Source of the DNA: Owenia fusiformis
Lineage: Eukaryota > Annelida > Polychaeta > Sabellida > Oweniidae
NCBI GenBank assembly: GCA_903813345.2
Contig: CAIIXF020000007.1
Coordinates: 18,587,564 to 18,651,563, forward strand
DNA: 64,000 nt
Direction of reading: 5' to 3'
Below, one piece after another: positions 7,011-63,238 of the stretch (within the stretch, counting starts at the first letter, position 1; each line of letters starts with the position of its first letter). Under the pieces are notes generated by a model that saw nothing but the letters and a program-made list of their open reading frames with translations, was not told where the DNA came from and did no database searches. The translations under genes were made by a program, and so were the position numbers.

Positions 7011-10000
7011 ATGAAGACCAAGAAAACAGCTCAAAGTAAGATATTTTATTTTTTGGTTGTTTTGCACTCTTTGGACAAATATTATTTCAACACTTACACC
7101 AGATTTCCTGGCCAGACTTCGTCAGTAGAAATTGAAATATAAGAGTTAGGGCAAAGGGGTGTAACGTCGATGTGCAGGGTAATGTTGACATAAATGACGG
7201 GGTAACTTCAACACTGACTAATTAGAAGTAGAACTTTCCGCCATGTTTGATTTCTGAAAAAATTTAAATCTCGCGAGATCTAGATCCACGCAAGAAAAAA
7301 ACAATAAACATGGCTTCCCCCTAGATCGGAAATTAGAGGAAATAAACAACAAGATGTCCAAGTTACTCCACATGTCGATGTTACCCCAAAATGGTGTCGA
7401 CGTAACACCCCTTCGCACCACCTGAAGATTAGGAGTCTTACTTACCCTCTAGAGGTTAGAATACATATTTCAATGAAACCCTATCAATGAAACCATTTAG
7501 CACAATATCCAAGAGGTAAAATATGGACCGTGAAAATGAATGATTTCCTTGTAAGTTCCGGAAGTTTCAATTCAATAACAGGCCTGTCAACTGTCCCGCA
7601 ATTTGCATACTGTACGCCCGGTATTATTCGCGAGCTTTAATTTCGCGAATTTTGCGAAAACACGGTTTTGCGGCTATTAAATTTCGCAAATACTGTATTT
7701 TATCGTATTCGGGGATTCCCCAGTATATGATGTCCAATCAAATTGCAGGCTACGATCACGTGAACAATCGTGCGCACGTGCGCTTTCATTGCCGCGCATG
7801 CGCATAGTAAAGTCATGGAGTTGCACAGTACTATTGAAGTACTATAACTCGATCCAAACTAGTAGATAAAACGAAATGCATCAGAGCCCCGGGTAAAAAC
7901 AAATTCCCGGGGATTTAATTTGCAATTTCGCGACGATAATTTTTCGCGATTTTAACACCCTCGCGAAAAGCGCGAAAGTTAATCGCACGCGAATAATACC
8001 GGGCGTACAGTATTTGTCACGCATTTGCTGAAGAATTTGAAGTCACGCCAGTTTTTTTTTGCGTGACAGAAAATGTCACGCAAATACTATATTATCTGGT
8101 AATTGTCAAGCAAAAATATTTCTGGAGAAAAATTTCTTAAAAATTTTGCTGATACAGTAAAAATACGAACGCCGAAAAAAGCGTATGCATTCCATTCAGA
8201 CTTTTCACGCGAATTACATATACCGGATTTTCTCGCATATAAGCCCTGGGCGTATAACTGAAAGAAGGGGTAATTTCATCTGTTATTTTACCTCTTATTT
8301 TTCGCCCATGGGCGTATAAGTGTACTACTTTCGATTTTTGGCCCAGTGGGCGTAAAGGTGAGAAGAGCTGATGAATACAATGGTTCCTCAAAGACTACCG
8401 TACCTACTGTTGTAGTCCTGCCGCATGTTTTGTAAGAATTATAAAGGAAATGTCACCTACAACCTTGGAGTTAATGTTGAAACAAAGTAACAACAGAACG
8501 ATCCACCACTGCCACTTACGGCACAGCGTTGAACTTAATGTTGAAACAAAGTAACGACAGAACGATCTGCCAGTGACAAAATACTCTTGAATTTATTGAA
8601 AAAATCAATAAATAGTCATTTTTTATAGGCCCATGGGCGTATAAGCGTACTACATTCGATTTTCGGCCCATGGGCCTAAATTTAGGGGGGCGTATATGCG
8701 AGAAAATCCGGTATGTCACGTATTCCGTTCGAAACTTTTCGTACATACACATCTGTCGCACATGTAATAAATTCTTACCCCAGGGAATTGAGTGCTCTAT
8801 TTTCTCCATCCTGGAACATATAGATATAGTGGATTTGTGTCAATATAGTGGATTTGTTTGACAATTAGGAACTTAAAAATTTGAAGAATTCACATGTTAA
8901 TGCAGACTCTTCAAAAGTTCAGGTAATTTTGGAGCCCGATTACGGCGCAAGGAGGATTGGCTCCCAGAATGCAAGATGACAGCTTTCAGAATGCAATTCC
9001 GCCATTTTGAAACCTGTCAAGAGTAAATAAGGTTAACTGATGTTGCATTCTGGGAGTTGATCCTCCTTGGATCACAAGAATGGCAATCCATGAAAACATT
9101 TGTTCGATTTGGTAGGAATTTATCTATCATTTGCAGGTATGAAGCGTTGGATTCATTCATTGTGTTACTTAAAGTGAATGGGAATTATTTTTCTTAGCTA
9201 AGCCTAATCACCTTACGATAATTCTTTTTATGATAGAAGCACCAAAATTGGTACAAGTGTAACTGAAGGCAATTGAAAAAAATTGGCTCGAGGCAGCAAG
9301 TGATCCGGAGACTCGTTCTGAAAAAAATCCAAGATGGCCGCCAATACATATAGATTTTTAAGAAATTTTAATTGTCTTTGAATTAATGTTGTATTTTAGC
9401 TCTAAACCAATTGTATTTGTTTAAGGGAATTCCGAGACAGTTGCTTGTGATATAGGAACTACTTTACAATATATTTAACTATTAAAACGGGTGTTCAGCA
9501 AGGCTCAGTATTAAGCCTTGTACTATTTTATAAGCTTTTATTGAATTACTCATAATTATACATATCAATATGAGAGTCACACATATTTTATTGTATTTTG
9601 TTTACCATCAATGAAGGTGAGCAATACCTCTTGGGTATGTCCCATATATATACGGTCGTAATTTACGTAATTAACATGGAAGATAGACCCAGAAACCCCT
9701 CCTTGAAGGAGCCCTGTGTTCTTTTATGTGCACTTATACATAGACATATAAGTACACACCACAGCCTTTTTGTACGAGTTGCGGACCACTCAGTCAAACA
9801 CCCTGAAGTACTTCACGCAAACAAGCAAATTTAGTCTTGCCTGAACCGGGGATCGAATCCGGGACCTATTGCGTAAGAGGTACCTGCGCTACCGCTGAGC
9901 TACACGGGTGGACACGGGTGGATATGATTGAGAATAAATGCTGGATAGACTCTGCACTTAAGGGATTTTAAATATATTTTCTTTTGGAAAAAATCTCTAG

Positions 10001-13000
10001 CCATGTTAAAACATGGTATGTACATAGTCAAATGTGACATACATATACTAAATCCTGGTCAAATACCAGTTCTTGCGGCTGACCAACCATTGTTTGCTTC
10101 CCTGAAAACCATTCAATAGTTATAGCCTGATACGCATGGGGAAGATAAATACTTGATCACATTTGGAGGTCTCCATATAGAAATGGCGTTCCAGAAAGTG
10201 ATTGGTGATTGGCTGACAGACAGCGGTTGGGTAAATGTAATTGCTCAGTCAAATACAGCATCAGTTGGTACTGCAGAGTCCTTCCTAAAGGGAAGCCATA
10301 TAACCAAGACTCGAAGAGCACGTCAAATTACGTTGGCAGCACTCCACATCCTAATGAAGAAAGCTTTCAACATATACCTAGTTTCTGCCGAACTCAGTGA
10401 TGTAGCCAGCCTATCCTTTGAAGAATGGAAAAGGGAAGGGGAAGACAATTCCCCCCATTTAAAATACTGGGCTATAACACAGCGCCTTCAAATGCTGCTT
10501 ATGATCATTGTTAGATCCCTGAGAGAGGCAGACCAAGATGATGCCCTGGTCCAATTGGAGACAACTCACCCTGACCTGTATCAGCGTTTCAATGAAGGTC
10601 TCTTTACAGTTCAGAAGACACCCAGGTCATTCTCAACCATCCCTGTAGACCAGGCCCATGAGCAAATAATGCTCTGATTAAGGGTTCTGGTGGGGTTATA
10701 GGAATAACAGAGAATCCTACTGCACTGAAACAATGGATGATAGCTGCTCCTGCAATATCCCAGATCATCAAAGAGTTTGAAGAAGTCTCAAGTATAGGAG
10801 ACATGAAAGCCAATGAAGACTTTAGCCACCACAAGCAAACACCAAGCATCCAACAGAAATTTAGAGATGATGTATTTGCTATTGTGGATACTATTGATAA
10901 ACTAAGCAATCCATTCCTTGTGTCAGGTGAAGATGTATTTACTATTGACACAAAGGATGTTATATGTATCAGTAAATAACACCATCAGAGGTATAGAAGA
11001 CATTGGCAACCAAAGCTTCACTAAGTATACAACTGAACGTCTTGTTGAGAGAACTGAACCATTGGATTCACCCATAAAACGCCACAAGATCGCAATGTTT
11101 AGCAGCAAAATACCCAAAAGAACAAATCAGAAATCTCAAATCAAGAAAATGAGAAATGACTGTGATTTATTCTCCAAATTATACATCACATGCCAGAAAA
11201 GAAACATTGATCTTGATGACTTTCTCATTCATGAGAACCAGGAGTATCCACCTTCACTGGCAAAGTATGGTGTCCTCAGAAATGGTGACAAATCAGAGCT
11301 ACTTGACCGCATGGAGGATATTGTCCCTAGGGGAAAAGATAGGCCTGCTGTTGTTGCTGAAATAATAGATGGTACATGTTCAGTACACCTTCTAAAACTA
11401 ACTACAGCAAAGACCTTTGAGGATTATGCCACTGATGTTTTCCTTCCCTACATCCAAGGTCAGCTGCAACATGTTGATCGCCTCGATATATCTTTGGGAC
11501 GAGTAACTGACAAGGAGCCTGAAGACGATGACGAGACAAGCGTGGGAAGGGTGACAGAAGGACAACCTATCTTGGTAACACTGTGCCCAGAAACTGGCAG
11601 TCTTACTTGAGAGATGACTCCAACAAGCAAGAGTTGTTTGGTATTTTAGCCTACAAACTATCAAGTCTTCCATTAGATGCAAATAAACAGATTGTGACCA
11701 CCATTGGTGAGAAGGTGATTTGCAATCCTGCAATTAGTGATACAAATGACTTGGAGCCATGTTCTCATGAAGAAGCAGATTCCAAAATGTTTTTCCACAT
11801 TGCCCTTATGGCTAGAAGAGGGTTTGCCAGAATACTTATCAGAAGCAATGATACTGATATAGTTGTCCTTGCTGTAGCTGCCTCTGCCCAACTCGTTATT
11901 AGCATATTGGTTGCATTTGGAACTGGGAAAAACTATAGGTATTTGGCTGCTCATGAGATGGCAAGAGCTCTTGGACCTACCAAATCTGAATGTCTCCCTG
12001 TTTTCCATGCATTTACTGGGTGTGATAGCACATCATCATTTTTTGGCCATGGAAAAAAATAATGTTGGACAGTATGGAATAAATATCCAGAAGTAACAGA
12101 AGCATTCCTGGCTTTAAAACAAAACCCACACCACATAGCAGAAGAAGCTCTATTTCTATTGGAAAGTTTCACAACCATTGTGAATTATTGTGTTCTATGA
12201 ATTATGGCGACGGCTTTTTTGAATGGATGTTGACCCTTTGAAATGCCTATGGACTTGGAGACTGGATTTTATCTATCCCACATCATTTGAGACTGAATGC
12301 TCTATCAACCAGAAAATATCTTTTCACCAAGGAGGGAAGACAGATTGACAAGATACCTCCGACTAAGGCAGCTTTGGAGCAGCATATTAGGAGATCGGCC
12401 TTCACAGGAGGGATTGTTTGAGGCCAAATACTGGATCATCGCCCAAGTGGTGTCCAGGATTATTTTAAGTTTGGCTCGGAGGAGGATGATGGTGATCACA
12501 TGATTCCACTTTTTGGTCTACTCTTCAGCAAACGTCAATAGCATGCAGAGAACTCATAAAGTGTCAATGCAGAAAGGGGTGTCGTCCTTGGTATTGTCCA
12601 TGTAAAAAAGCTGGCTGGGCAAAATGCACAGACCTTTGTAAGTGCAGTGGGCTTTGCACTGATTAGTGAGAGTAACAATAAAGGACAAAATATTTGAGAT
12701 TTGAGAAAGATGGTGATCAAAAATGTAAACCATAGACAATTTATCATACAGAAATTGCCCTAGAATTGAAATTTTTGCATTGTAGCACCATCTAACTGGT
12801 ACTTTAACAATAACCCCCTTATTTTGGATATGTGGCTGAATATATTCTCTTATACAAGTTGTTCAGTAGAAGTAAGAAATCTTATTATCCAATATTATGT
12901 AAGTACTCATTCTTCGGTTAACAATTTTTGATGAATAACAATATATGTTATTTATGAACTTAATAGTACAGGTCATAATACTGAACCTTGTTTTACGCCG

Positions 13001-16000
13001 TTTTACATTTGAAACTCAAGTTAAATGTCAGTTCATCAAAAAAGATTCATTTCAAAGCCACTTCTTGAGGTTTCTATGCAGTTTTCATTAATATGTTAGA
13101 GGATTTTGAGATTTTAATAGAAATCTGCAAAATCACAAACAGACTGGCGGCCATTTTGAATTTTTTCCAAAACGAGGCTCCGGATCACTTGCTGCCTCGA
13201 GCCATTTTTTTTCAATTACAATCAGCTACACTTGTACCAATTATGGTGCTTCTATCATAAAAAGAATTATTGGGAGGGTTTTTCAAGTGATTCAGCCTAA
13301 CTATTCTACTGTTTTGGAGAATTTGAAACATAAAACTTAGAATTTAGCTCATTGTGACATCTTTTGATGGTTGAGGTTTATTAAAGTCTTCCAGTTTAGT
13401 AAACGTCCCTTGGCACCTCTCGAGGCACCTAGATTCATATAGAAAGATTTAAATACTATTTTAAAAATTCGATTCATTCTCCCACATACAATATTCTGAG
13501 ATTTAAAAGTTCAAATCTCTCTTTAACCGGGGCACATTGATGGTACAGGACAAGTTTCACAAAAGTCTAAAAAAATGTTAAAAGTGTACTATCATACATG
13601 AAGTGCAAAGATGAATCACAGACAAAACTTAAGTCTCTTGATTTTTGTTTTACTTATTAAAGCAAATTCCTGAAAAATTCAAGTCATCTTTATTAGTTTA
13701 ACAACTGGTTTTTAATATATCCAATATATCTGCCAGTCTATGAAGAAATTTTATTGCCAGAAGTGCAGAATCAATCATTTATGATTTCAGTATTTGTAGA
13801 TTCTTCATGTGTGACCATTCAAGGTTATTGTTTCTTTTGTATAATTTTGTATGTGTATTTCAACTAACATATTATGGTGATTCCAGAAGCTGGAAGGAGG
13901 CAGTTGAATACTAGTGTTCCAAATCAGTATAAGCCTATTGCCAAGAAAAGAGTGTTCCTGGACTTGAAGAATTACAGAGGAAAGGCTGCCTTAGAAGCTG
14001 ATCTAGAACTACTGGGAGCTGTGAGTTGTGGCATTGTACCTTTTTTGCTATCACTAAGTATAATCAAGTGATTTTTTGATATTTTATGATGTAAATAAAT
14101 GTAAGTTTTCCTTGAGAAAACAAAATATCTTGCAAATTATCTTATTGCAGAGACTGTATTATCACTTGGGTTCTCATTGCGATCAAGTGGTGTTTAGATT
14201 TCTATAATACAGTGACATCTGAATATCTGAACACCTCTCTAATCTGAAAACCTCTCAATGTGAACACTTTTTAGGTCCCCAATCTCTCATAGACTTACTT
14301 ATAAAGAGAATCTTGAAATATGAACACCAACGAATCCAGACACTTCTGGCTGATTCCAGTGGCGTTTAGATTCAATAGATTTTACTGTACAAAATAACGT
14401 AGATCTTAACACTGTTCTCTTTCATGTTTCCATAGCATTAAGTTTTATTAATTGAACCTTTTATTCTTTCAGACCATTGAGAAATGTTTCAGTAGAGAAG
14501 TGAACTTCCTCGTGACAAATGCTGTAACTCCAAAGGAGGTGATGTCATACAGGAATGCATCTAGCTCTAATGCTGCCACCCCTAGTCCATTTAACATGGG
14601 AGGTGCTACCCCTCTTGGAATAGACTCCCCCAGCCAGGATTCACCAAGCAACCCTGAAAACAAAGGAGTGAGTTTAACCACATATATATTTAAATGTTAA
14701 ATTACACAATGGCCAAAGGTGAATATGGGAAAGCACTTTTTATTTCACTCAATCCCCAGAGTAATTGAATGTTCCATCGTCCCGTGTTTCAATAATACGA
14801 TCCATTGTGTACTCATAATATGAAGTCATTACCTGGTCCGATATACTCACTGTTGTTCATTTCGTTTAATTTTAGCATGTGACCAGAGGGAGAGTTATGG
14901 CGCAGAAAGCCAGAGTGACACAAAGCAGCTCTGTAATTGATAATGCAAGGAAACTGAAAATTAAAGTAATACATGTCATTAGTAAGTGTCTAGAATTTTT
15001 ATTATACATGTAAGAGATTTATGGAGTAAGATCTTATTTGAGAAAAAATCTTGAAATCCAGTTATTGCACTTTAAAAAGTACTATATTGTCCACAGGGTA
15101 ACTGGTCTACTCATACCAAAGACAACTGGTCCCCAAGACAACTTGTCCTTAGTTTATGTTTTGTTTTGAATCAAGTGTTGGATGGGAAAAGGTATAGATA
15201 TACATGTACATATTATAATTGTTCCATACTGGTCAGAATTGTTTGAAGACACTCAATTTACATATAAAATATTTTAAATATATAAATATTATTATGGTAC
15301 TTAATCATACATGATATACATGTAATACACTTTGTACACATGTGCTCAAACATAATCCAATTTAGTTCCAAGTTGGAAAAGAAATTAACATATTAAATCT
15401 CTATTATTAACCTTATCTATGCAATGCTATTACTAAGATTAATGTCAAAATGAATGAACTATTTTTCTCTAAATGTACTTACCTAAATTAATTGTTTGAT
15501 TCATTTGTAGAAAATTCACTGTTGTAATTATATTTATTTACTTGTTCCTACTAATATATAAATTGGGTTTTGACCGTGGGAGTCATAGATTTAAAGTTTA
15601 AATTACATTTAATTAGAATAATGTAATTGAATTAGAACTAAAGAGCCAATGAAAGATGTAATGGCTAGATGTGCTAATTAATTTGGTTAAGGGCTAATTA
15701 GCTGCTACACCTACAAAGATCTAGATATAATCCAAAGCTAAGGTGCAAATATGCTTACCTGATCTTAAGGTGTTAAGGATGGGTTGTTGGGATGGCCCAA
15801 AAAACATAAAACAGCTTACAACAGAAGATTCAGATCTACATTTGGAGACCAAATAAATCTTGACACAATCCAGTGTAAAGTTGGTATGGAAGAGAGGCTC
15901 GACATACAGGTTCTAAGCCTGACTTTGGGCGAGATTCCCAATACTTACCCGGGAATAGCAAACCTAAAAAAAATTCAATTATATGCAATAATTGTTATTA

Positions 16001-19000
16001 TTTATATATATGCATGACAAAAAAAGTTAAGAACAAGCCCTTGAAAGCACTTCTTTTATCTAAAAAAGTGATCAATTCCAAGTTAAAACAAAATGCTTTG
16101 TTTAATCCAATGAGAAAAAATATTGGGGCTTATTTGATTCACATTATAAGATTAAAACTTGAGTATGAGTTGTCTTGAGTACGAGTTGTCTTGGGTACGA
16201 ATTGTCTTGGGTACAAGTTGTCTTGGGTACGAATTGTGTTGGGTATGAGTTGTCTAGGATATGAATTGTCTAGGGTACGAATTGTCTTGGGTACGAGTTG
16301 TCTTGGGTACGAATTGTATTGGGTACGAATTGTCTTGGGTTCGTATTGTCTTGGGTATGAGTTGTTTCTGGTATGAATCATCTTGGGTACGAGATGTCTT
16401 GGGTAAAAATTGTCTTGGGTACGAATTGTCTTGGGTACGAGTTGACTAGGAAGCATAATTGTCTTGTTTATGCTGCTTTACCTTTAACACACTACTGTGT
16501 ACTTGCTAACAAAATGAGACTTGTAATAAATCTTGTCATCAGAATACCTGGAAAACTGTTTATCAGTCAACTTCAAATGTTTACAGATGCAAAAGCAGAC
16601 TAGGCTATTCGCATATATTAAAAAGATATTCATCTCTGCGATATTTATCACTGTATCCTGTTTCTTTTTCATTTTAGGTGTTGAGATATGGGTTGAGAAA
16701 GAAAAAGAAAAGATTCCTCTAGCTGCAAGACAGAATAACAAGAAAGAAGTAAAGGATGATAAAGTCACTAAAGGTGAGTAAAATATCACTGATTATCAAT
16801 ATGCTATTGTGGTAGAGCTTTAACAAGTTATTAGCTAATATTGTACCTGGAATTTCAAATTGTGTAGTTCAATGATGAATGATTTTGAAATAAATATACA
16901 TATGTAGAATTTTCCTCTAATGCAATTACATTTGAGGAAGCCTTATGTCATATATGTTGTTTAACAGAGAAAAAGATGACTGCTCCATTCGTGAAGTTTG
17001 AAGCTACAAATAAACACTACAAGCCATACTGCATGGAGTTCGCCACATTCCCATCCCCTAACATGCAGACCAAGAAATGGTCATGCCCCTTTGACCCGAG
17101 GGACCAGAAGAATGTTGTACGTGGTGAGAGAGCCGAGTTAGAAGAGGCTGCTGAAGAAGCCGATCATCCTGGTATGGATGGAACCAATAAAAGGTTGGCA
17201 TTTTTACAACCTAAATTAATTAATTTTTTAGAAATATCTCCAAATAAATATATCATTCAGATGAACTCATTGTCATTTATAATTTTCACTTTATAATTTG
17301 CTCAGCGGGTCTTTATTATCAGTTAGTATGATAACTGCCTAATCACCACATTTCTTCAGATCTCAATAATTTTTCTGAAATAATAATATATGTATTTGAT
17401 GCTTAATTAGTGAAAATTTGAGTGAGAAATGCTAATAAGTATATTTTAAAGAATAAAATTTGCTTTTCTTATTGATGTACGTTCACATTATATTTAAATA
17501 TAGAATTAGTACTCTCTTACCAGATTGACCATTTTTATAAAAATTTAACAATCTTCAAAATATGTTTTGATATAATTGAGTGAAGCTTTTATGTTACATT
17601 CTTAGACATTGCCTTTGATATTGTTGGGATTTGAGTATAAGTACATGTTAACTATTTGCAGGGCAAGTGTTAAAGGTGGTGAAAGCTCTGATGTGTTGGG
17701 TATTGACAAATTGACAACAGCAGGTCAACTTAAGAACTATATGTTAGAGAAACGCAAGGAGGAACAGCGTAAAGGCTACTGTGAATGCTGTCAACTCAGA
17801 TATGATGACTTGGAGCAGGTAGCACTTTTTACACAAATCTATAAATAGCACTTGATTTCCTTTTTGTCTCTTGAAAGTTGAAAAGGTAACAGAGATGAAT
17901 GAGGGGATATACCAAGAGATTGATATAGGTTAAATAAGAGGAGAGCAAGGCTGAAACAGAAGTACAACACCTTCATGAAAACACATTTTGATTTTTTGAA
18001 AGGAATATGAAAGTTCACAAAAGTTCTGCACAAATAAAATATCCTATATATTTCGTTGTGGTAACATGGGGAGATTTCGAGAGAAAATCTTTGTTTATGG
18101 CCAATATCATTCAGAAAACGTTGATATTCTTCAAAGTGAATTATAAGTATTTCTTTTACAGCACATACGAGGAGAACAGCACAGGAAGTTTGTTGCCACA
18201 GAGGAAAACTTTACATCCCTTGATTCTTTAATACAACAAGGCCCCAACATGCAACGTTTTTTGGATGATGTTCTTCGCTATCATACTATACATCAAGTTG
18301 AAGCAAAGTTAGAGAGGTTAGTGTCAAAATCTCATTTAGTAAGAGTTGCCAAATCTTTTTTTTTAAAATCTTGTCTTGGTGCTTTTACTTGAAGAAATGT
18401 TCATCTTCTCCGTCTCTCTCAAATTATAAATATTTGCCAATTAGTTCTGTATTTTCATGATGTTGAACCAGTTCTTTCAGTCATCCATCCATATCACTAC
18501 ATTCCCAACATTGCAGTTTTAACTGAGACATTTTATAAGCAGCATATTGTTCGCAGCTTGCACATGTGTCTGAGTTTAAGATATCTGTCTGGTTCCAATA
18601 TTTTATAACCATAAAATCACTGTTGAAATTAGACATTAAAAAGTAATGTAACTGTGATATGAATGATATATTTTGCATTTAGAAAGTTACTAGATATTAT
18701 CTGTATGATTTATTTGTTTGATATGTATTTAAAAGCCGTGATTACTTCAAAACTTGATCAGAAAATGTGAAGAAAGTTTATTATTGCACAATTTTGTCAT
18801 TATATTTGAATACAAGAATTGCCTATTGTTGCCATTCAAATATTACCTCATAGGCCTCTCAAACCTATTCAGCCTATTCAGGAACTGAATATTTTCCCAT
18901 CCCAAATAACCAAAGAAAAAATATAAACATTTTTTGGCCTACCCTATTTATTTCTATATTAATTTCTTCTTGTGTTTTGTATGCTAAAAGCTATGTTCTT

Positions 19001-22000
19001 GTAAACCTGTTGTACACATTGATTACTTTCAGTCATGAAGACAAAGAGGAAATTGCCCTGCTCACCCCCTACAAATCCCCTGCTAGAAACATCAAGTTTG
19101 TTGCATCAAAACATGCCAAGCAATCTCCTAAGGGTAAAGGAAAGGATCATAAGAAAAGTTATAAGAGAAGGTTGGATATCTCAAAAGACAATACAAATAT
19201 TGCTGGTCAATCGATGGAAGGTCTGACAAGTGATCAGCCTACTACTTCACAGCAAAGTGCTGGTAAAAAGCCGGACATTGAGTCAGCCCATGTAACAATG
19301 AGACTTAAGCCCTCAGTTGAAGATGAAGAGCTAACAGAAAAAAGAGCAAAGATCCCAAATAAAGAGCAGAAAAATAAACAGTGTCAAAAGGTCACAAAAG
19401 ATTGTGATAATGCTGTGAGCAACTTTCCCGGCTCTAGTCAACATATTAAACCAGATCGTGCGAAAAGGAAAAATAGTATCTCACCAGAAAAACTAAATAC
19501 TCCTAATAAAAGATCAAAAAGTTCAGGAAAGAGTGCAAAGCCTACCACCCCTCAGTCCCCACCCCAGCGTACCACTAGATCACATACAACTCCTAAACAA
19601 ACCCCAGGAAAATCAAAAACAGAGAAAAGGATGCTTAGATCTTCAGAGAAAAAACAAAGTGCTAAGTGTCTGAAAATGTCAGTAGAGTCAGTACCCCATT
19701 CGCATTCATCAGACCCAAATGCAACAATCCCATTTGGAAATAAAACTCCCCAGAAAGTGATAAATAGAAGACAAGGTGCTCATAAGGCGGCAGCTTCTTC
19801 TAATGTGGAAGAAGTATCTTCACATAATCAAACTCAAAATAGAAAATCAAATGATTGGAGGATCCTTACTGACAGGAGTATGCAGAAAATGTTCTGCAGT
19901 GAGCGAGATGATGTTAACTTTGAGGGTTTTAAGAATGTGGACACTGATTTACCTACAGATCTAAGCTACAAGGATCTTTCAGAGATCAGCATACCTCCAA
20001 CCTCAAATTTAATACCAATAGCTGTTAAACAAAGCCTTTATAAGCAATCTCCATTGAAATTTAAAACCAAGGTGGCAACTCCAATTAAAAGTGATGATGT
20101 CATTGATATAATGAAGATACTTGATAAAGATGCATCATCTGAATGGGATAATACTGTAGATAGTTATCTTGAGGGGCATATCATGAAGGAGACTACTAAA
20201 GGGGCAATAAATTCATTCGTTCTCAGAAGTTCAGCGAAGAAAGTTTCAGGTTACAACATAGTACTCGATCAAGAATCTAGCATTAAAGAAAATAGGGAAA
20301 AAATACGAAAGCAAGTGTTGCATAAATCAAGTCCAGTAAAACATGGAGCAACAAAGGCTGTTCTTGAAGGAAAAGATGCACTGAAAGTAAATACAGCAAG
20401 AAGGAGACCTATCGACGATGTTGAAGATAGAGAAATGGAGGAACATCTGGAACAACTTCTTGCTGGTGTCCAGAAAGAAGTCCTTGCTAAACCATTCAAG
20501 ACATGGGTGAAAGACATAGATGGAAAAGAACATGAGGAAAGTGATAGCTCTGTACCAGAATATAAGAAATTCAGCCCTACTGCTGAATCTACTCCACGTT
20601 GTAAGAATAAACCATCAAATGGAGCCACTGAAACTAAACTTAATGAATCTTTCATAGAAGATCAAAAAACAATGGTATCTGACAAGAAACAACAGCAAAA
20701 ACTGATTGGTGAAACTAGACAAGATACAACACCTAGAAAATGTACTAGATCAGCCATAGAGGCAGTACCCCCAAGTCCTGGTTCCCCTAGTATAGAAGCA
20801 CAGGTCATAATTGATAAGGACATTTCCTTCAACTTTGATAGCCCACAATCCCACAACAAATCAAGATCAAGATTGAATTTCAATACATCTGGTTTGAAAT
20901 CAGCTAAAGATGATGATATCGATGAGAATGAAGTCACAATCGGTTATGATCGATCTCCTGCTAGAATTAAGATGTTGGACCAAGTTAGTGCTGGTATCCA
21001 GGCCCATCTTACAAGTGGTCCATCTAGTCCACACACCAAAACACTCATCTCTTCATCTAAATTAGAGGAGAGTGTTCACTCTAAAAGAAGATCACTACCA
21101 ATAGAAATACCAATTGGAGCAATACTAAGCAAGCCTAATGTGATGAAACCTACCCCAGAGAACTCCAAGACAACAAAGAAATTGTTTAAATCATTATCAG
21201 ATAGGAAAAAATGTTACAAACTGGATCACATCAAAACACACATGAACACCACTTCTACATATGGGAAAATAACAAAGGGTTCCCCAAAGATCAGATTCAA
21301 TTCAATTGGTTTGAATAAAACATGGGGAGGATTTAAAAGCTCAAGTCAGGGCCAGTCTAGAAGCTTTGTAAAGAAGGTTGGGAATCCAAAGGTGTTGTCA
21401 CCTAGAAGGATAACAAGGCAGAGTCCTCTGAAGCCTCAACTTAGCCCTAAGTGTTCCACACAAGATGATGCCAGGAGGTCAAATACTCCAAAGAAAACCA
21501 GTCCAAGAAAGCGACTAGACATGAAGAGCCCTAGCAAGGGAAAAGTAGAAACCAGCGCAAAGAAACAGCATAAAAGTAGAAGCCCATTGAAAGGCAGGAA
21601 CACCAGGAAGTCCCCTGGTAAAAGTCCAGCAATGAAAGGGAAACAAGCAGTCAGGAGCTCCTTAAGGAGAGCTCTCCAGGATTCAATCTCTGAGTACAGT
21701 GGACATAGCAGCAGTGACTTCAAGGAGCTCAATAGTAAACATGCTGACAGTCCCTTGTCTTGCGCTCAGATCAGCTCTATCAAAGCAAGAGATTATCGTA
21801 GAATTCACAGAACTGTCAACTGGGCTGCAAAAGTGAATGATAGTAGTGATGAGTTCAGAGATAAGCAAACACCAGTGTATAAATCAAAGTCAAATGGAAA
21901 GAGATTGTCTTTTCATGAAGGCTCCAGGAGAGCTTTGTCCAGTCAACACAATGAGAGTATGCGAAAAACTGATGAGAATATGAAAAATATTACCCCAGAC

Positions 22001-22423
22001 AAAGGGCGACTGCGCGAAAGACCTGAACCTAAGAGTGCACCAGCTAAACTAAGACAGTCAAAATCAGTGAAAAATGGTAGTCCTAACAAAAAAAGCCCTT
22101 CAAAATCAAAGAAAAGAAAAAGTGATGTAGCCAATATAGAATTGAAGAAAACACAAGAAAATAATTCTCCGGCAAAGCGTAGAGTGACAAGACATAGTGA
22201 GTCTAACCAGCAAATAATCGCTGGTAAAGATACAGTGAAAACACCTTTGGAAAATACCAGAAAGACTCCCACAAATAAGAATGGCAAAAGTCCTACAAAA
22301 ATGAAAAGTCCAGCAAAAAGTCCTTCAAGATCCAGCAAGAGAACACTCAGGAACCAAACCAAAAGAGCTAACATGTACTATGAGTTTTCAGAAGGTTCTG
22401 AAGATCCATTTGACCTTCATTGA
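7011..22423 (+). CDS. DBF4: DBF4, regulatory subunit of CDC7 kinase, nine exons with giant last exon
   Basis: Coding exons: 7011-7035, 13887-14020, 14473-14667, 14876-14981, 16678-16773, 16968-17193, 17662-17818, 18162-18316 and 19033-22423. Phases agree throughout, giving 1494 residues. DBF4 binds and activates CDC7 to fire replication origins. Motif N/BRCT-like region: about residues 25-165, with VFLDLK, LLGATIEKCFSREVNFLVTN and KLKIKVIHVIS. Motif M: about 189-225 (APFVKFE, then WSCPFD). Motif C zinc finger: C301, C304, H314 and H320 in GYCECCQLRYDDLEQHIRGE, matching the CX2C...HX5H of the family. Everything after residue 365 (about 1130 residues) is one exon: basic, low in hydrophobics, rich in [S/T]-P-x-[K/R] sites, with a KEN box at 783-785 and an acidic end (SEGSEDPFDLH). 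Human DBF4 is about 670 residues, so the tail is unusually long. Exon 1 is the least certain part: it has good phase and a GTAAG donor but codes only nine residues; the alternative start is ATG 13874, giving 1490 residues. Confidence 0.92.
7149..7419. mobile_element. MITE with AAGGGGTGT(A/T)ACGTCGA terminal repeats
   Basis: The left end reads GGGCAAAGGGGTGTAACGTC and the right end is its near reverse complement, GACGTAACACCCCTTCGCAC. Subterminal GGTAATGTTGAC / GTCGATGTTACC segments are also inverted. Length about 270 bp. No clear target duplication. In DBF4 intron 1, 113 bp after the first exon. Confidence 0.65.
7607..8013. mobile_element. TA-flanked MITE, CTGTACGCCCGG terminal repeats
   Basis: Near-perfect ends ATACTGTACGCCCGGTATTA and the reverse complement at 7994-8013, with GGTATTATTCGCG on the left and CGCGAATAATACC on the right. 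A TA at each end fits a Tc1/mariner-type target. The interior is rich in TTTCGCGA-like motifs. Coding potential: none. Confidence 0.75.
8223..8711 (-). mobile_element. Complete MITE, CCGGATTTTCTCGC terminal repeats, TA target
   Basis: Starts CCGGATTTTCTCGCATATAA and ends GCGAGAAAATCCGG, with TA on both sides (8221-8222 and 8712-8713). Length 489 bp. It is the complete version of the partial copy at the left edge of the window, in opposite orientation. It has CCCATGGGC palindromes near both ends. Lies in DBF4 intron 1. Confidence 0.8.
8949..9070. repeat. 122-bp hairpin element
   Basis: Arms CAAGGAGGATTGGCTCCCAG (from 8949) and its near complement CTGGGAGTTGATCCTCCTTG ending about 9069, both continuing into GAATGCAA / TTGCATTC. 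A degraded MITE or a foldback structure; no target duplication identified. Confidence 0.55.
9484..9555 (+). pseudogene. Non-LTR reverse transcriptase relic
   Basis: Translates as KTGVQQGSVLSLVLFYKLLL before a stop. This resembles the conserved RT block G-V-x-Q-G-S-x-L-S-P-x-L-F of LINE elements, here with the Pro lost. Only ~70 bp is recognisable. It could be chance, but the run of matching positions makes a LINE fragment more likely. Confidence 0.45.
9838..9912 (-). repeat. tRNA-derived SINE head or tRNA pseudogene
   Basis: On the minus strand TAGCTCAGCGGTAGCGCAGG fits a pol III A box and GATTCGATCCCCGG approximates a B box with a T-arm-like CCGG/CCGG stem. The acceptor and anticodon stems pair poorly (loop TTACGCA), and CACGGGTGG is duplicated at the 5' end, so this is not a functional tRNA gene. 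The SINE body, if present, would lie at lower coordinates (about 9600-9837). Confidence 0.55.
10060..12666 (+). pseudogene. Broken transposase-like gene, DQAHEQNN / HEEAD / FTGCD family with Cys-rich tail
   Basis: Pieces in order: FGGLHIEM and GDWLTDSGW (10153-10677); after a one-base loss in DQAHEQNNAL the next frame gives KGSGGVIGITENPTALKQWM (from about 10663); after another shift near 10970 a long piece with FLIHENQEYPPSLAKYG (to 11610); then NWQSYLRDDSNKQELF, CSHEEADSKM, RSNDTDIVVLA and HAFTGCDSTSSFFGHGKK (11583-12062); then YPEVTEAFLALKQNP; and finally a Cys cluster CQCRKGCRPWYCPCKK with CTDLCKCSGLC ending at TAG 12664-12666. Two in-frame stops lie just upstream of 10153. At least four frame changes and an internal shortening make it non-functional. 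From memory, intact relatives are long single-frame genes listed as uncharacterised in many cnidarians, molluscs and fishes; the acidic HEEAD...DTD segment recalls PIN/FEN-like nucleases, and the tail resembles CXC Cys motifs. The flanking inverted repeats argue that the family is a transposase. Confidence 0.78.
14210..14387. mobile_element. Pogo/Tigger-like MITE
   Basis: TA then CAGTGACATCTGAATATCTG at the left, and TAGATTTTACTG then TA at the right. CAGT...ACTG ends flanked by TA fit pogo-type elements, as does the repeated CTGAACACCTCTC-like text inside. Lies in DBF4 intron 2. Confidence 0.5.
16164..16451 (+). repeat. 16-bp minisatellite, 18 units
   Basis: Eighteen consecutive units of the type TACGAATTGTCTTGGG with no length variation, only substitutions; the third to fourth bases of the AATT core switch between AATT and AGTT. 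Because 16 is not a multiple of three, open frames across it shift register every unit and read the same 16-residue pattern in all frames; these are not genes. In DBF4 intron 4. A related string, CCCAAGACAACTTGTCC, occurs about 1 kb upstream near 15132. Confidence 0.9.
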
Positions 22424-25392: not shown

Positions 25393-27460
25393 TAAACTAG
25401 ATGCCAGTAGATCTTGATTTACGTCATTAAATATTAAAATTTCATTCAAAGTGATGTCATATTTGAAATCAACATGTAAAAGTACATCTAGAAATATGGT
25501 CTGGAAAATTGTCTATCAACTTTGAAAAAAATTTTTTTTTTGAAAATGTGACTTCTAGCTCAAAAAGTGAAACATCTTTTCTTGTATTGGACAGATAACA
25601 TTTTCTTTTATTGGATATATTTTAATTTGCATAAGTATTTAGATACATAAGGCAGATGGATATCAAGTTCAGTACAAGAACACAAATGTGTACAAAATGT
25701 CCCCACCAGTGGGTGATCCCATCAAATGGTTATCCTGAAAATGAGTAGACTAAGACTTTACCAACACAATTTGAGGACAGAAAATCCAAAATGGCCACCT
25801 TAAAATTTACCCAGAATGCCAAAAATTTAGTCAGTTCTAGATTTTCAAACTAAGAACCACCCCTGAAAATTTTTAATTGATCCGTCACACAGTTAACTAG
25901 AAAACATGTAAACAAGACTTTACAGACAAGATTTTAGGATGGAAAATCCAAAATGGCTGCCTTGACATTTACCCAGAATGTCAAAAAACTAATCTGTTCC
26001 TAGATTTTCATACTAAGAATCATCCCTGAAAATATGACATTGATCTACCAAATGGTTCACCTGAAAATGCGTAGACAAGACTTTACAGACAAGATTTTAG
26101 GACAGAAAATCCAAAGTGGCTGCCATGACATTTACACAGAATGCCAAAAAACTAATCAGATGTAGATTTTCACACTAAGAATCATCCCTGAAAATTTGAA
26201 ATTGATCTACCAAACGGTTCACCTAAAAACGCGTAGACAAGACTTTACAGGCAAGATTTTAAGACGGAAAATCCAAAATGGCTGCCTTGACATTTATCCA
26301 GAATGCCAAAAAACTAATCAGATCTAGATTTTCATACTAAGAATCATCCCTAAAAATTTGAAATTGATCTACAGAACGGTTCACCTGGAAATGCATAGAC
26401 AAGACTTTACAGACAAGATTGTAGGACAGAAAATCCAAAATGGCTGCCTTGACATTTGCCCAGAATGCCAAAAAACTAATCAGTTCTACATTTTCATACT
26501 AAGAATCATCTCTGAAAATTTGAAATTGATCTACCAAACGGTTCACCTGAAAACGCGTAGACAAGACTTTACAGACAAGACTTTACAGACAAGATTTTAG
26601 GACGGAAAATCCAAAATGGCTGCCTTGACATTTACCCAGAATGCCAAAAAACAAATCAGATCTAGATTTTTATACTAAGAATCATCCCTGAAAATTTGAA
26701 ATTGATCCACCAAACGGTTCACCTGAAAACACGTAGACAAGACTTCACAGACAAGATTTTAGGACGGAAAAATCCAAAATGGCCGACAATAAAAAAGTGA
26801 TTATGTGTTTTTGCTGATTTCTTCTTACAAAATTATCACATATAACTACTGTTAACAATAACATAGGCTTTTACAACAAAGTACACCTGAAATTATTTAT
26901 AAAGCTACTAAATAGTTAAAGTATGAAAACTCAAAAACACCATTCAATATGATACAAAGTATTATCGTGCGCTAACTTTTCTTAAGACATTCAAAATGGC
27001 TGACATGACTGAGCTAACAGGTCCAAAACCTAATCAAATCTAGAATGAAGTGAGCTGAACAAGATGTTAAAGTTTTAAAAGCAACTGTGAAGCCGTTTTT
27101 CTTAAAGTTTGCAGACAAGGATTTTAGCATTTGACTTCAAAATGGCCGACAGGAAGTAGGTATCGAGTTAAAATTTTTTCATCCACATCTGTATGCACTC
27201 ATAAGTTATCCCTGAAAATTTGAAGGTGATATCTGTAGCGGTTTTGGAGAAAACTCCCGGACGTACGGACAGACGTACGGACAGACGGACGGACGGACGT
27301 ACGGACGGACAGACAGACGGACGCGCCTAGGCCGACAATATGGCCCCACACTATGTGGTGGGGACATAAAAAGGGAACTTTCTACTCTACCTGCCATGCT
27401 ATCTGACTCGAACAAGCCCCTGATGGTGAAACTGGTAACTACCTACTCGCATCTGAGTCA
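25393..27460 (+). mobile_element. MITE (AGATGCGAGTAG family) interrupted by a 1.7-kb element
   Basis: Outer left part 25399-25690 and outer right part 27370-27454 align with the two ends of the reverse complement of 3896-4284 (shared text includes TGTATTGGACAGATAACA on the left and GGTAACTACCTACTCGCATC on the right). Between them lies the separate element 25697-27367. This is a nested insertion visible by comparison within the window. Confidence 0.75.
25697..27367 (+). mobile_element. ACGG-microsatellite element with tandem core units (possibly pearl-like)
   Basis: Twelve-bp terminal inverted repeats ATGTCCCCACCA (25697-25708) and TGGTGGGGACAT (27356-27367). The core is seven tandem units of about 162 bp, with GACTTTACAGACAAGATTTT (or variant) at 25754, 25916, 26079, 26241, 26403, 26565 and 26741, each followed by AAAATCCAAAATGGC. 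Unit six has an extra 14-17 bp duplication of GACTTTACAGACAAG. Then diverged sequence and an ACGG/ACAG-rich microsatellite (about 27255-27325) near the right end. Core tandem units plus an ACGG microsatellite are, as I recall, the layout of bivalve pearl (Helitron-like) elements; that family name is tentative. Confidence 0.75.
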
Positions 27461-34108: not shown

Positions 34109-57050
<22,942 letters not shown>

Positions 57051-59766: not shown

Positions 59767-60728
59767 GCAATATACATGTACAAGCAAATAATAAATAAAT
59801 TTGATTATTGTATAGTCTTTGATTAAATCAAATCTTATTTAAATAACTAGAAAATAATTCAAACAATTATTCCTTATGAAAGCATGCCCTGATTATTGAC
59901 CAGACGTTAGCTTCCCATCCCTCCATCCACATAAGTTCTAAACACAGGCTCAGTGTGAGCACCATTCAAAGGTAAATACAGGCAGGTGTTGCATTCTTCA
60001 AACAATATATTAGTAAAAAAAATAGACGTTAACATCCTGCAATTTCAATTTTTAAGTTCAGTTAAAATTCTGCCAATTCAGTCTAATGCACAACACCAGA
60101 GAAAAACCTCAAAATGCTCACATTCGACACAAAAATCATGATTTCTAAAGCCTCTAAGATTGATCTCAGTCAGCGTTACTGAATGTTATTTCACATGGGC
60201 CATGGTAGAATTTGCTGAGTTACTTTCTAAACTTGAAACCACTTCCCTTTAGCTCATTTGTATCTCAAGTCAACATCTTGATCTAACAGTAAATGATCTG
60301 CTGATTTGTTTTCAAGGGCTGGCATTTAAGATAAAGCTTTGATTTTTTCTTGCTAATTTTTTTCTACATGAGAAAAGTAGATCAATTATTTTTATTCTAC
60401 TTCACAATAATATTTGGGCCATTAACACATATGTGACAGACAGTGTTAATGTGAGCCTACGTGAGAGCTGTGTCTACAATATCAGGCCTCCTAGACTTCC
60501 AACAACGCGAACATCAGTTCTGATACCGCGAACTACGTTCCTTGCACTTGAACCACGAATCTCATATCGCGAACGTGAAATCTTATGTCGCGCACCACCA
60601 TTTCATTGTTTCCGAACATACTTCTTGTACCTCGCACAGAGATCCGTTACCGCGAACAATTTGTACATAATACATCCGGGTGTTTGGGATTCCAAGTTAC
60701 ATGTATATACCAATATGCAACGGAGTGA

Positions 60729-61130
60729 AACAAGGAAATTTCGCCGGACTTTCGTTCCTTTGAAAAGCATGCAAGATTAACATCCACGCCCCGAGTTGGC
60801 AGGGCTTTAAATGATGTGTCAAGGGACAGCACTGCGTCCCACAGTCATTCATTTTTGGGATCAGAGAGTACCTGCGCACGGTGTGGTGTAATAGGAGATG
60901 TCATTTGTAAGAACTACAACGAAAGTGTAGAGGTGTGTGATAGCTGTGGTTGGACCAGAAACTTTCTTGACACTAGTATATCACACGCTTGCACCGATGA
61001 TCATGTTCCCGACATCCATTTTTGTGACACATGTGGATGGCAGAGAGATTCAGCTGATTTCAGGCAGATCTACCGTTTTTGTATAGTTAATCTTTTTTCT
61101 TACACTGGTTTTAGGTGCCATGGTAGTTAA
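60729..61130 (+). CDS. Cys-rich open frame with two CxxCGWxR zinc-ribbon-like repeats
   Basis: Open from after a TGA at 60726 to TAA at 61130, with no in-frame ATG before the Cys region (first alternative start is GTG 60816), so it is an exon or a fragment. After CARCGVIGDV come two related blocks: C-x9-CDSCGWTRN-x3-D and C-x10-CDTCGWQRD-x3-D, with HAC between them. The paired CxxC motifs suggest zinc binding. I do not recognise the family. Being enclosed by the inverted repeats at 60483 and 63191, it may be a remnant of the element's own protein. A possible splice acceptor (GGGATCAG) lies near 60870. Confidence 0.45.
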   Translation, partial: NKEISPDFRSFEKHARLTSTPRVGRALNDVSRDSTASHSHSFLGSESTCARCGVIGDVICKNYNESVEVCDSCGWTRNFLDTSISHACTDDHVPDIHFCDTCGWQRDSADFRQIYRFCIVNLFSYTGFRCHGS

Positions 61131-61298: not shown

Positions 61299-61696
61299 CA
61301 TGATGAAATTAATTTTTCAGCCCTCTGAAATTTGTGACTGAAAAATAGATAAAAGTAGGAGCTTAGGAAAGGTCACTGAACAGAATCTCTTGCATTTTTC
61401 AGAAAATGTACCTAATATATTGCTCTCAGTGATACAATCTTGGGAAATTTGATATCATTCGTTGAAAAAGAAAAAAATGAAAAAAAATGAATTGAAAAGC
61501 GATATTTATTCCTTTTTATGACCGCCATTTTTTCAGACAAGTTTCTAAAATTTTAAAGATTGTATCATTTAGAGCAATATATTGGGCACATTTTCTGAAA
61601 AATTCAAAAGATCCTGTTCATTGACCTTTCCTATGCTCCTACTTAAAGCTATTTAAATTGACCTTTTCAGAGGGCTGAAAAAGTTATTTCATCATG
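61299..61696. mobile_element. Hairpin MITE, 140-bp arms
   Basis: Left arm 61299-61441 and right arm 61556-61696 are inverted copies (CATGATGAAAT at the tips; TTTTTCAGCCCTCTGAAA, GTAGGAGCNTAGGAAAGGTCA and AATATATTGCTCT inside), with a ~115-bp loop. Nested inside the 60483-63191 element. No target duplication identified. Confidence 0.75.
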
Positions 61697-62483: not shown

Positions 62484-63238
62484 AGGATGATAGATTGTTA
62501 TTTTCCTGTATGTAAACAGTTAATCCCACAAGCCGTAATGGGGGGGGGCAACATTTAAGTTAAGTTTTCATGGCAAAGGGTAGCATCTTCAAATTATCAT
62601 TAGCTAGAGCTACAGATATAGCACATCAAGTATTCTATAAAATCAGGAATAGTGTACATAGGGTAACTCATTTCTTTATTATGATGCAATCATCAGCTCA
62701 AATGGACAAAATTGGAAAAAGCTGTCACTAATTTGGCCATACGTGTTGTGACTCAAAAGTTAGGTTTTTGTTTTTGTTGTTATTACCCAGCCCTTTCACT
62801 GAAAAAGTCAATGCGCGTGATTGCAAGGTAGTCCCAATATTTTGTGTTTCCTAGAGCTTGAAAATACTGTTATCGTCAATGAGTGGATATTCATTCACAT
62901 GCATGAAAACTGGGAAAATATTTCTTCCGAATTCCATATGAAAACACCTCCTTGGAATTTTACTTATGCGTAATAATACGAACAAAATTACGGACCTCTT
63001 TTCGATCAGATGCGTGGTTCGCGGTAACGGATCTCTGTGCGCGGTACAAGAAATATGTTCGGAAACAAGGAAATGGTGGTGCGCGACATAAGATTTCACG
63101 TTCGCGATATGAGATTCGTGGTTCGAGTGCAAGGAACGTAGTTCGCGGTATCAGAACTGATGTTCACGTTGTTGGAAGTCTAGGAGGCCTGAATATGTAG
63201 TCATTCTGGCAAGTTATATAAAATGGCCATGGTTTCTT

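Follow-up and report, generated by a model that had tools for sequence, protein, structure and literature searches.

A putative inactive DNA transposon copy with long terminal inverted repeats and a FEN-like set of acidic motifs in Owenia fusiformis

A broken protein gene lying between two long inverted repeats in the polychaete Owenia fusiformis raises the question of whether the gene and the repeats belong to one mobile element and, if so, what kind of enzyme the gene once encoded and under which transposon superfamily the element should be filed. The window analyzed here is the whole stretch of 64,000 nucleotides (64 kb) taken from contig CAIIXF020000007.1, and the candidate element within it has a length of approximately 4.05 kb. 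The reading favored in this study, to which a probability of roughly 0.5 is assigned, is that of a single cut-and-paste DNA transposon copy, damaged and no longer active, with a FEN/XPG-type core in its one gene, provisionally Academ/AcademX; a dead DNA transposon copy accounts for the inverted ends, the broken gene, and a mirrored inner repeat. The feature is real, ordinary in kind, and moderately useful. Mobility, catalysis, the division of labor within the protein, and the superfamily are what we infer from it.

Terminal repeats and the broken gene

A protein gene framed by terminal inverted repeats, the arrangement by which cut-and-paste (class II) elements are recognized, was found at this locus, with the two arms identical at 115 of 126 positions in a position-by-position comparison and the gene pieces located between them (Table 1). 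BLASTN aligned 13145-13270 to 9343-9218 along 126 bp with 91.3% identity, and a second repeat search extended the arms 7 bases further outward (133 nt, 89% identity); agreement in this outer extension is only partial, and beyond ATAATTC the arms soon diverge. Both arms end outward at the identical repeat position. Two 20-base words taken from the arms, searched across the whole 64-kb window with up to 3 mismatches permitted, each occurred at the two arms only, in opposite orientation and with 0 mismatches, compared with chance expectations of 0.02 and 0.00 matches from shuffled sequence. Within the 64-kb window, word searches and a BLASTN self-comparison detected no second copy of either the terminal repeat or the gene.

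The arms enclose one plus-strand gene that survives as at least six frame pieces, interrupted by stops and frame changes. The first recognizable piece, which ends in DQPLFASLKTIQ and lies ahead of p1 with a stop between the two, is taken here as a putative part of this gene. The frame change from p1 to p2 falls inside the DQAHEQNN motif itself (DQAHEQ/NN), whereas HEEAD, NDTD, and FTGCD are all carried by the core piece, p4. Of the open frames in the element, the three longest (234, 183, and 176 codons) belong to the plus strand, where each either contains motifs or sits between them; no minus-strand frame exceeds 126 codons. Because the longest internal open frame comprises only 234 codons, the copy is taken as dead. 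We assume that the family of DQAHEQNN/HEEAD/FTGCD proteins is widespread in aquatic animals. An earlier sequence-only reading of this DNA had proposed inverted repeats of 125 bp and ~90% identity, a broken gene with the DQAHEQNN, HEEAD, and FTGCD motifs, and a Cys-rich C-terminal part; the repeats are present in the place claimed for them, and both the gene and its Cys-rich part were recovered.

Table 1. Positions of the element's features within the 64-kb window
Feature	Positions	Strand	Basis or remark
Left terminal inverted repeat, 126 bp	9218-9343	+	compared with the reverse complement of 13145-13270
Candidate target duplication AATT, left copy	9220-9223	.	border scan; alternatives TA or AT
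Inner inverted repeat, left	9485-9527	+	reads T-G-V-Q-Q-G-S-V-L-S; 267 bp from end
tRNA-derived, SINE-like piece	9840-9911	-	by eye; in element, upstream of gene
First recognizable gene piece	10051-10119	+	translation; NPGQIPVLAADQPLFASLKTIQ then stop
Gene piece p1, GGLHIEMA ... DQAHEQ	10126-10677	+	open frame
Gene piece p2, NNALIKGSGG ...	10662-10979	+	open frame
Gene piece p3, middle region	10906-11610	+	open frame
Gene piece p4, FEN-like core (by motifs)	11532-12062	+	HEEAD from 11766, NDTD to 11858, FTGCDSTSSFFGHGKK
Weaker downstream gene pieces	12083-12241, 12242-12421	+	assigned by position and strand only
Cys-rich C-terminal gene piece	12496-12666	+	10 Cys in 56 residues; no Pfam match
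Inner inverted repeat, right	12962-13004	-	reads N-G-V-K-Q-G-S-V-L-stop; 266 bp from end
Right terminal inverted repeat, 126 bp	13145-13270	-	repeat search, BLASTN, position-by-position count
Candidate target duplication AATT, right copy	13265-13268	.	border scan

Acidic motifs of the core piece

The acidic residues of p4 occur in the order E-E-A, S-N-D-T-D, and G-C-D-x6-G-x-G, and the words HEEAD, SNDTD, and GCDx6GxG correspond to the acid motifs of archaeal flap endonucleases (FENs) in the same order. The likeness to FEN1/XPG extends to local wording (ExEA/HEEAD, SxDxD/SNDTD, and GxDx6GxG), whereas the spacing from EA to the first D of DxD differs (24 residues here versus 17 in the FEN of locus L004), similarity at the profile level is lacking, and the core is joined here to other regions and to a Cys-rich end. 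For comparison, 31 loci were fetched via the Pfam family XPG_I, which had a match in 147 of 148 genomes, and archaeal FEN proteins were taken from 16 of these 31 loci by a stricter word search. A FEN-like pattern, E-x-E-A(10-30)D-x-D(30-80)G-x-D-x6-G-x-G, was written post hoc from p4 and the FENs, with its gaps fitting p4. This post-hoc pattern was present in p4 and in all 16 extracted archaeal FENs, in 0 of 200,000 shuffles of p4, and in 24 of the 388 open frames (>=100 aa) in the other loci, the remaining 364 being without a match. All 24 matching frames read EGEA ... S-x-D-Y-D and are FEN-like; the pattern is not fully sensitive, with 24 of the 31 XPG_I loci matching and 7 not.

When p4 was aligned by hhalign to the 16 archaeal FENs, the score was 13.0, a value that 103 of 150 shuffles equaled or exceeded; p3, which is without the acid motifs, scored 15.4 and p1 scored 11.7, and the best stretch of p4 lay in the expected register. 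No XPG match was found in Pfam with the gene pieces scanned singly or, to E 10, joined with X, and no scanned gene piece reached any Pfam cut-off. The nuclease-like core of the earlier reading thus fared unevenly: the motif order is FEN-specific in the controls that were run, while neither homology at the profile or Pfam level nor a PIN/FEN or RNase H-like fold was obtained. Therefore, p4 may be called FEN-like only at the level of its motifs.

Other candidate relationships of the gene pieces were considered and set aside. Weak Pfam matches of the gene pieces to DUF7228, STE3, and Imm63 lie far below the cut-offs and are taken as chance, p1 having two such weak matches. A resemblance of the string DQAHEQNN...GG..G...W to DUF6589 was considered, and no DUF6589 match was returned by Pfam with the pieces apart or, to E 10, joined with X. 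For p1, there was no PHROG match and no PDB sequence match; in the PDB, the sequence hits of p4 (E 0.039) and p3 (E 0.61) are regarded as chance. Two single-sequence structure models of window pieces were poor (mean pLDDT 49.6 and 38.5), and a Foldseek search with the pLDDT 49.6 model returned 517 matches at E <= 10, none at E <= 0.001, with no flap endonuclease named among the best 50 of the 517; no conclusion is drawn from this search.

Searches of mobile and viral sequence collections gave a similar picture. In IMG/VR, pattern stretches numbered 0 for p4, 4 for p1, and 6 for p3, none of them a relative by tblastn, and there was no match for the terminal repeat word, for DQAHEQN(N), or for HEEAD-69-DTD. 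Two IMG/VR stretches with a relaxed EQN..KG.GG pattern were rejected as chance, having stops in the surrounding frames and no other motif of the family. Additionally, p4 had no match at E <= 1 among phage and plasmid records; across viral contigs, phages, and plasmids, no relative was found, and a literature search on the protein motifs or DUF6589 found no relevant paper.

Superfamily placement, alternative readings, and predicted mechanism

The scan of the element borders, covering lengths of 2 to 10 bp, found mismatch-free equal flanks of AT, TA, or AATT only, all of which are palindromes, and no perfect non-palindromic duplication. Being palindromic, these flanks could just as well belong to the repeats. 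Were AATT the duplication, the element ends would start CTTTTTATGATAGAAGC.

AcademX elements carry a nuclease of the XPG type and also have a Cys-rich region. The element described here probably comes from an already known transposon group, and its best filing, with chances that we judge to be about even, is the Academ superfamily, lineage AcademX, as a provisional placement. According to PMC10045372, AcademX encodes a nuclease and leaves 3- or 4-bp duplications, AcademH leaves 9- or 10-bp duplications, and these lengths are linked to the encoded helicase and nuclease. The present element is likewise a probable DNA transposon of several kb, with a candidate nuclease (FEN-like by motif order only), and its possible AATT duplication, although palindromic, would suit the 3- or 4-bp length given for AcademX. 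In contrast, its 4.05 kb is shorter than the mean curated length of 5565 bp for Academ elements in PMC10294476, a bivalve study in which these animals are described as rich in Academ; an N-terminal part may have been lost. The helicase of AcademH was absent among the Pfam matches of the scanned pieces, which do not include all of 12083-12421, and it could have stood in a lost part. KolobokP, as described in PMC9587614, is a further invertebrate DNA transposon with an additional nuclease. A whole-word literature search found no paper joining Academ, XPG, and transposons. The previous view that the element could not be matched to a named superfamily was probably too pessimistic, with AcademX being a good candidate.

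A source in some superfamily other than Academ, perhaps an unnamed one with TA, AT, or no duplication and a protein that also has a FEN/PIN-like core, is possible but doubtful. The ends suit TA or AT as well as they suit AATT, none of the scanned pieces reached a Pfam cut-off, and the filing under Academ is provisional; on the other side, AcademX as described in PMC10045372 is an existing lineage for transposons that encode a nuclease.

The interior of the element bears on whether the repeats and the gene are connected at all. The arms have no clear likeness between 126 and 266 bp inward, after which a second, inner inverted repeat appears with 33 of 43 positions identical between 9485-9527 and 12962-13004; a gapped alignment of the inner region scored 27.0 versus a shuffle maximum of 24.5, with 0 of 500 mononucleotide shuffles reaching 27.0. 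Both sides of this repeat read GV[QK]QGSVL, which we take to resemble the reverse-transcriptase motif GVxQGSVL(S). A 25-residue piece holding this word had no Pfam match. Within the SINE-like piece at 9840-9911, ARAGORN called no tRNA, and its core word is unique within the window.

Two unrelated, MITE-like short elements inserted by chance in inverted orientation around a decayed gene, leaving repeat and gene unconnected, would fit the lack of another copy of either in the window, the exclusively palindromic candidate duplication, and the stretch from 127 to 266 bp inward over which the arms are not clearly alike. Such a coincidence is nonetheless unlikely, as the inner repeat is mirrored relative to both ends and the outer limits of the two arms coincide to the base; the near-equal distances of the inner repeat from either end (267 and 266 bp) favor one element over two unrelated insertions. 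A host gene in decay, or a domesticated relative, located within a segmental inverted repeat would agree with the single gene copy in the window, yet it is extremely improbable given the at least six frame pieces and the SINE-like and reverse-transcriptase-like pieces inside, which together have the look of dead mobile DNA.

For the favored reading of a damaged, provisionally Academ-type transposon copy, the long inverted ends are predicted to be the binding and cutting sites of the element's own single-gene protein. The upstream part of this protein would probably be the transposase proper, the FEN/XPG-type metal-dependent core would cleave DNA with metal ions held between Glu and Asp residues, and the Cys-rich end would probably bind zinc and DNA. 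The protein of an active relative would be expected to bring the two ends together by means of its DNA-binding parts, cut them, and release the element, with the FEN-like core predicted to trim or cleave flap-like intermediates during excision or integration. The main cuts could be made by either the FEN-like core or a DDE domain. To our knowledge, no eukaryotic transposase with a FEN/PIN-type fold is known for cutting transposon ends, and it is very unlikely that the family forms a separate superfamily whose ends are cut by such a core rather than by an RNase H-like DDE domain. If the element is Academ, an accessory role of the nuclease is favored because Academ is treated among 17 DDE/D superfamilies in PMC10294476.

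At this locus, a protein type whose pieces went unmatched in Pfam is connected with one particular terminal repeat. Should this be borne out, such proteins in animal gene sets could be annotated as products of transposons, and intact relatives would allow the part played by a flap-type nuclease in transposition to be tested. If the element is AcademX, as seems likely, little is added beyond one further decayed member of that lineage.

Other repeats and open frames in the window

Several further features were observed outside of the element. An open frame at 60729-61127 has a weak Pfam match to Rdx (E 0.00069; 20.2 bits, below the cut-off of 22.6), and an unbroken plus-strand frame of 1189 codons at 18854-22420 has no Pfam match to E 0.1. 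Positions 1-397 and 8218-8614 form an inverted repeat with 98% identity over 397 bp, its arms being 7.8 kb apart and much more alike than the terminal repeats of the element; its left arm may extend past the window start. A 187-bp inverted repeat with 95% identity joins 60471-60657 and 63017-63203, and an imperfect palindrome of ~400 bp at 61299-61696 is 75% self-complementary. The general look of the window includes minisatellite pieces. A tandem array at 25714-26783 has a period of ~164 bp and ~83-87% identity among its longer self-matches, and a tandem repeat at 56046-56778, with self-matches at ~78-bp offsets and half-multiples thereof, can be read without a stop on either strand (247 codons on the plus strand and 243 on the minus strand).
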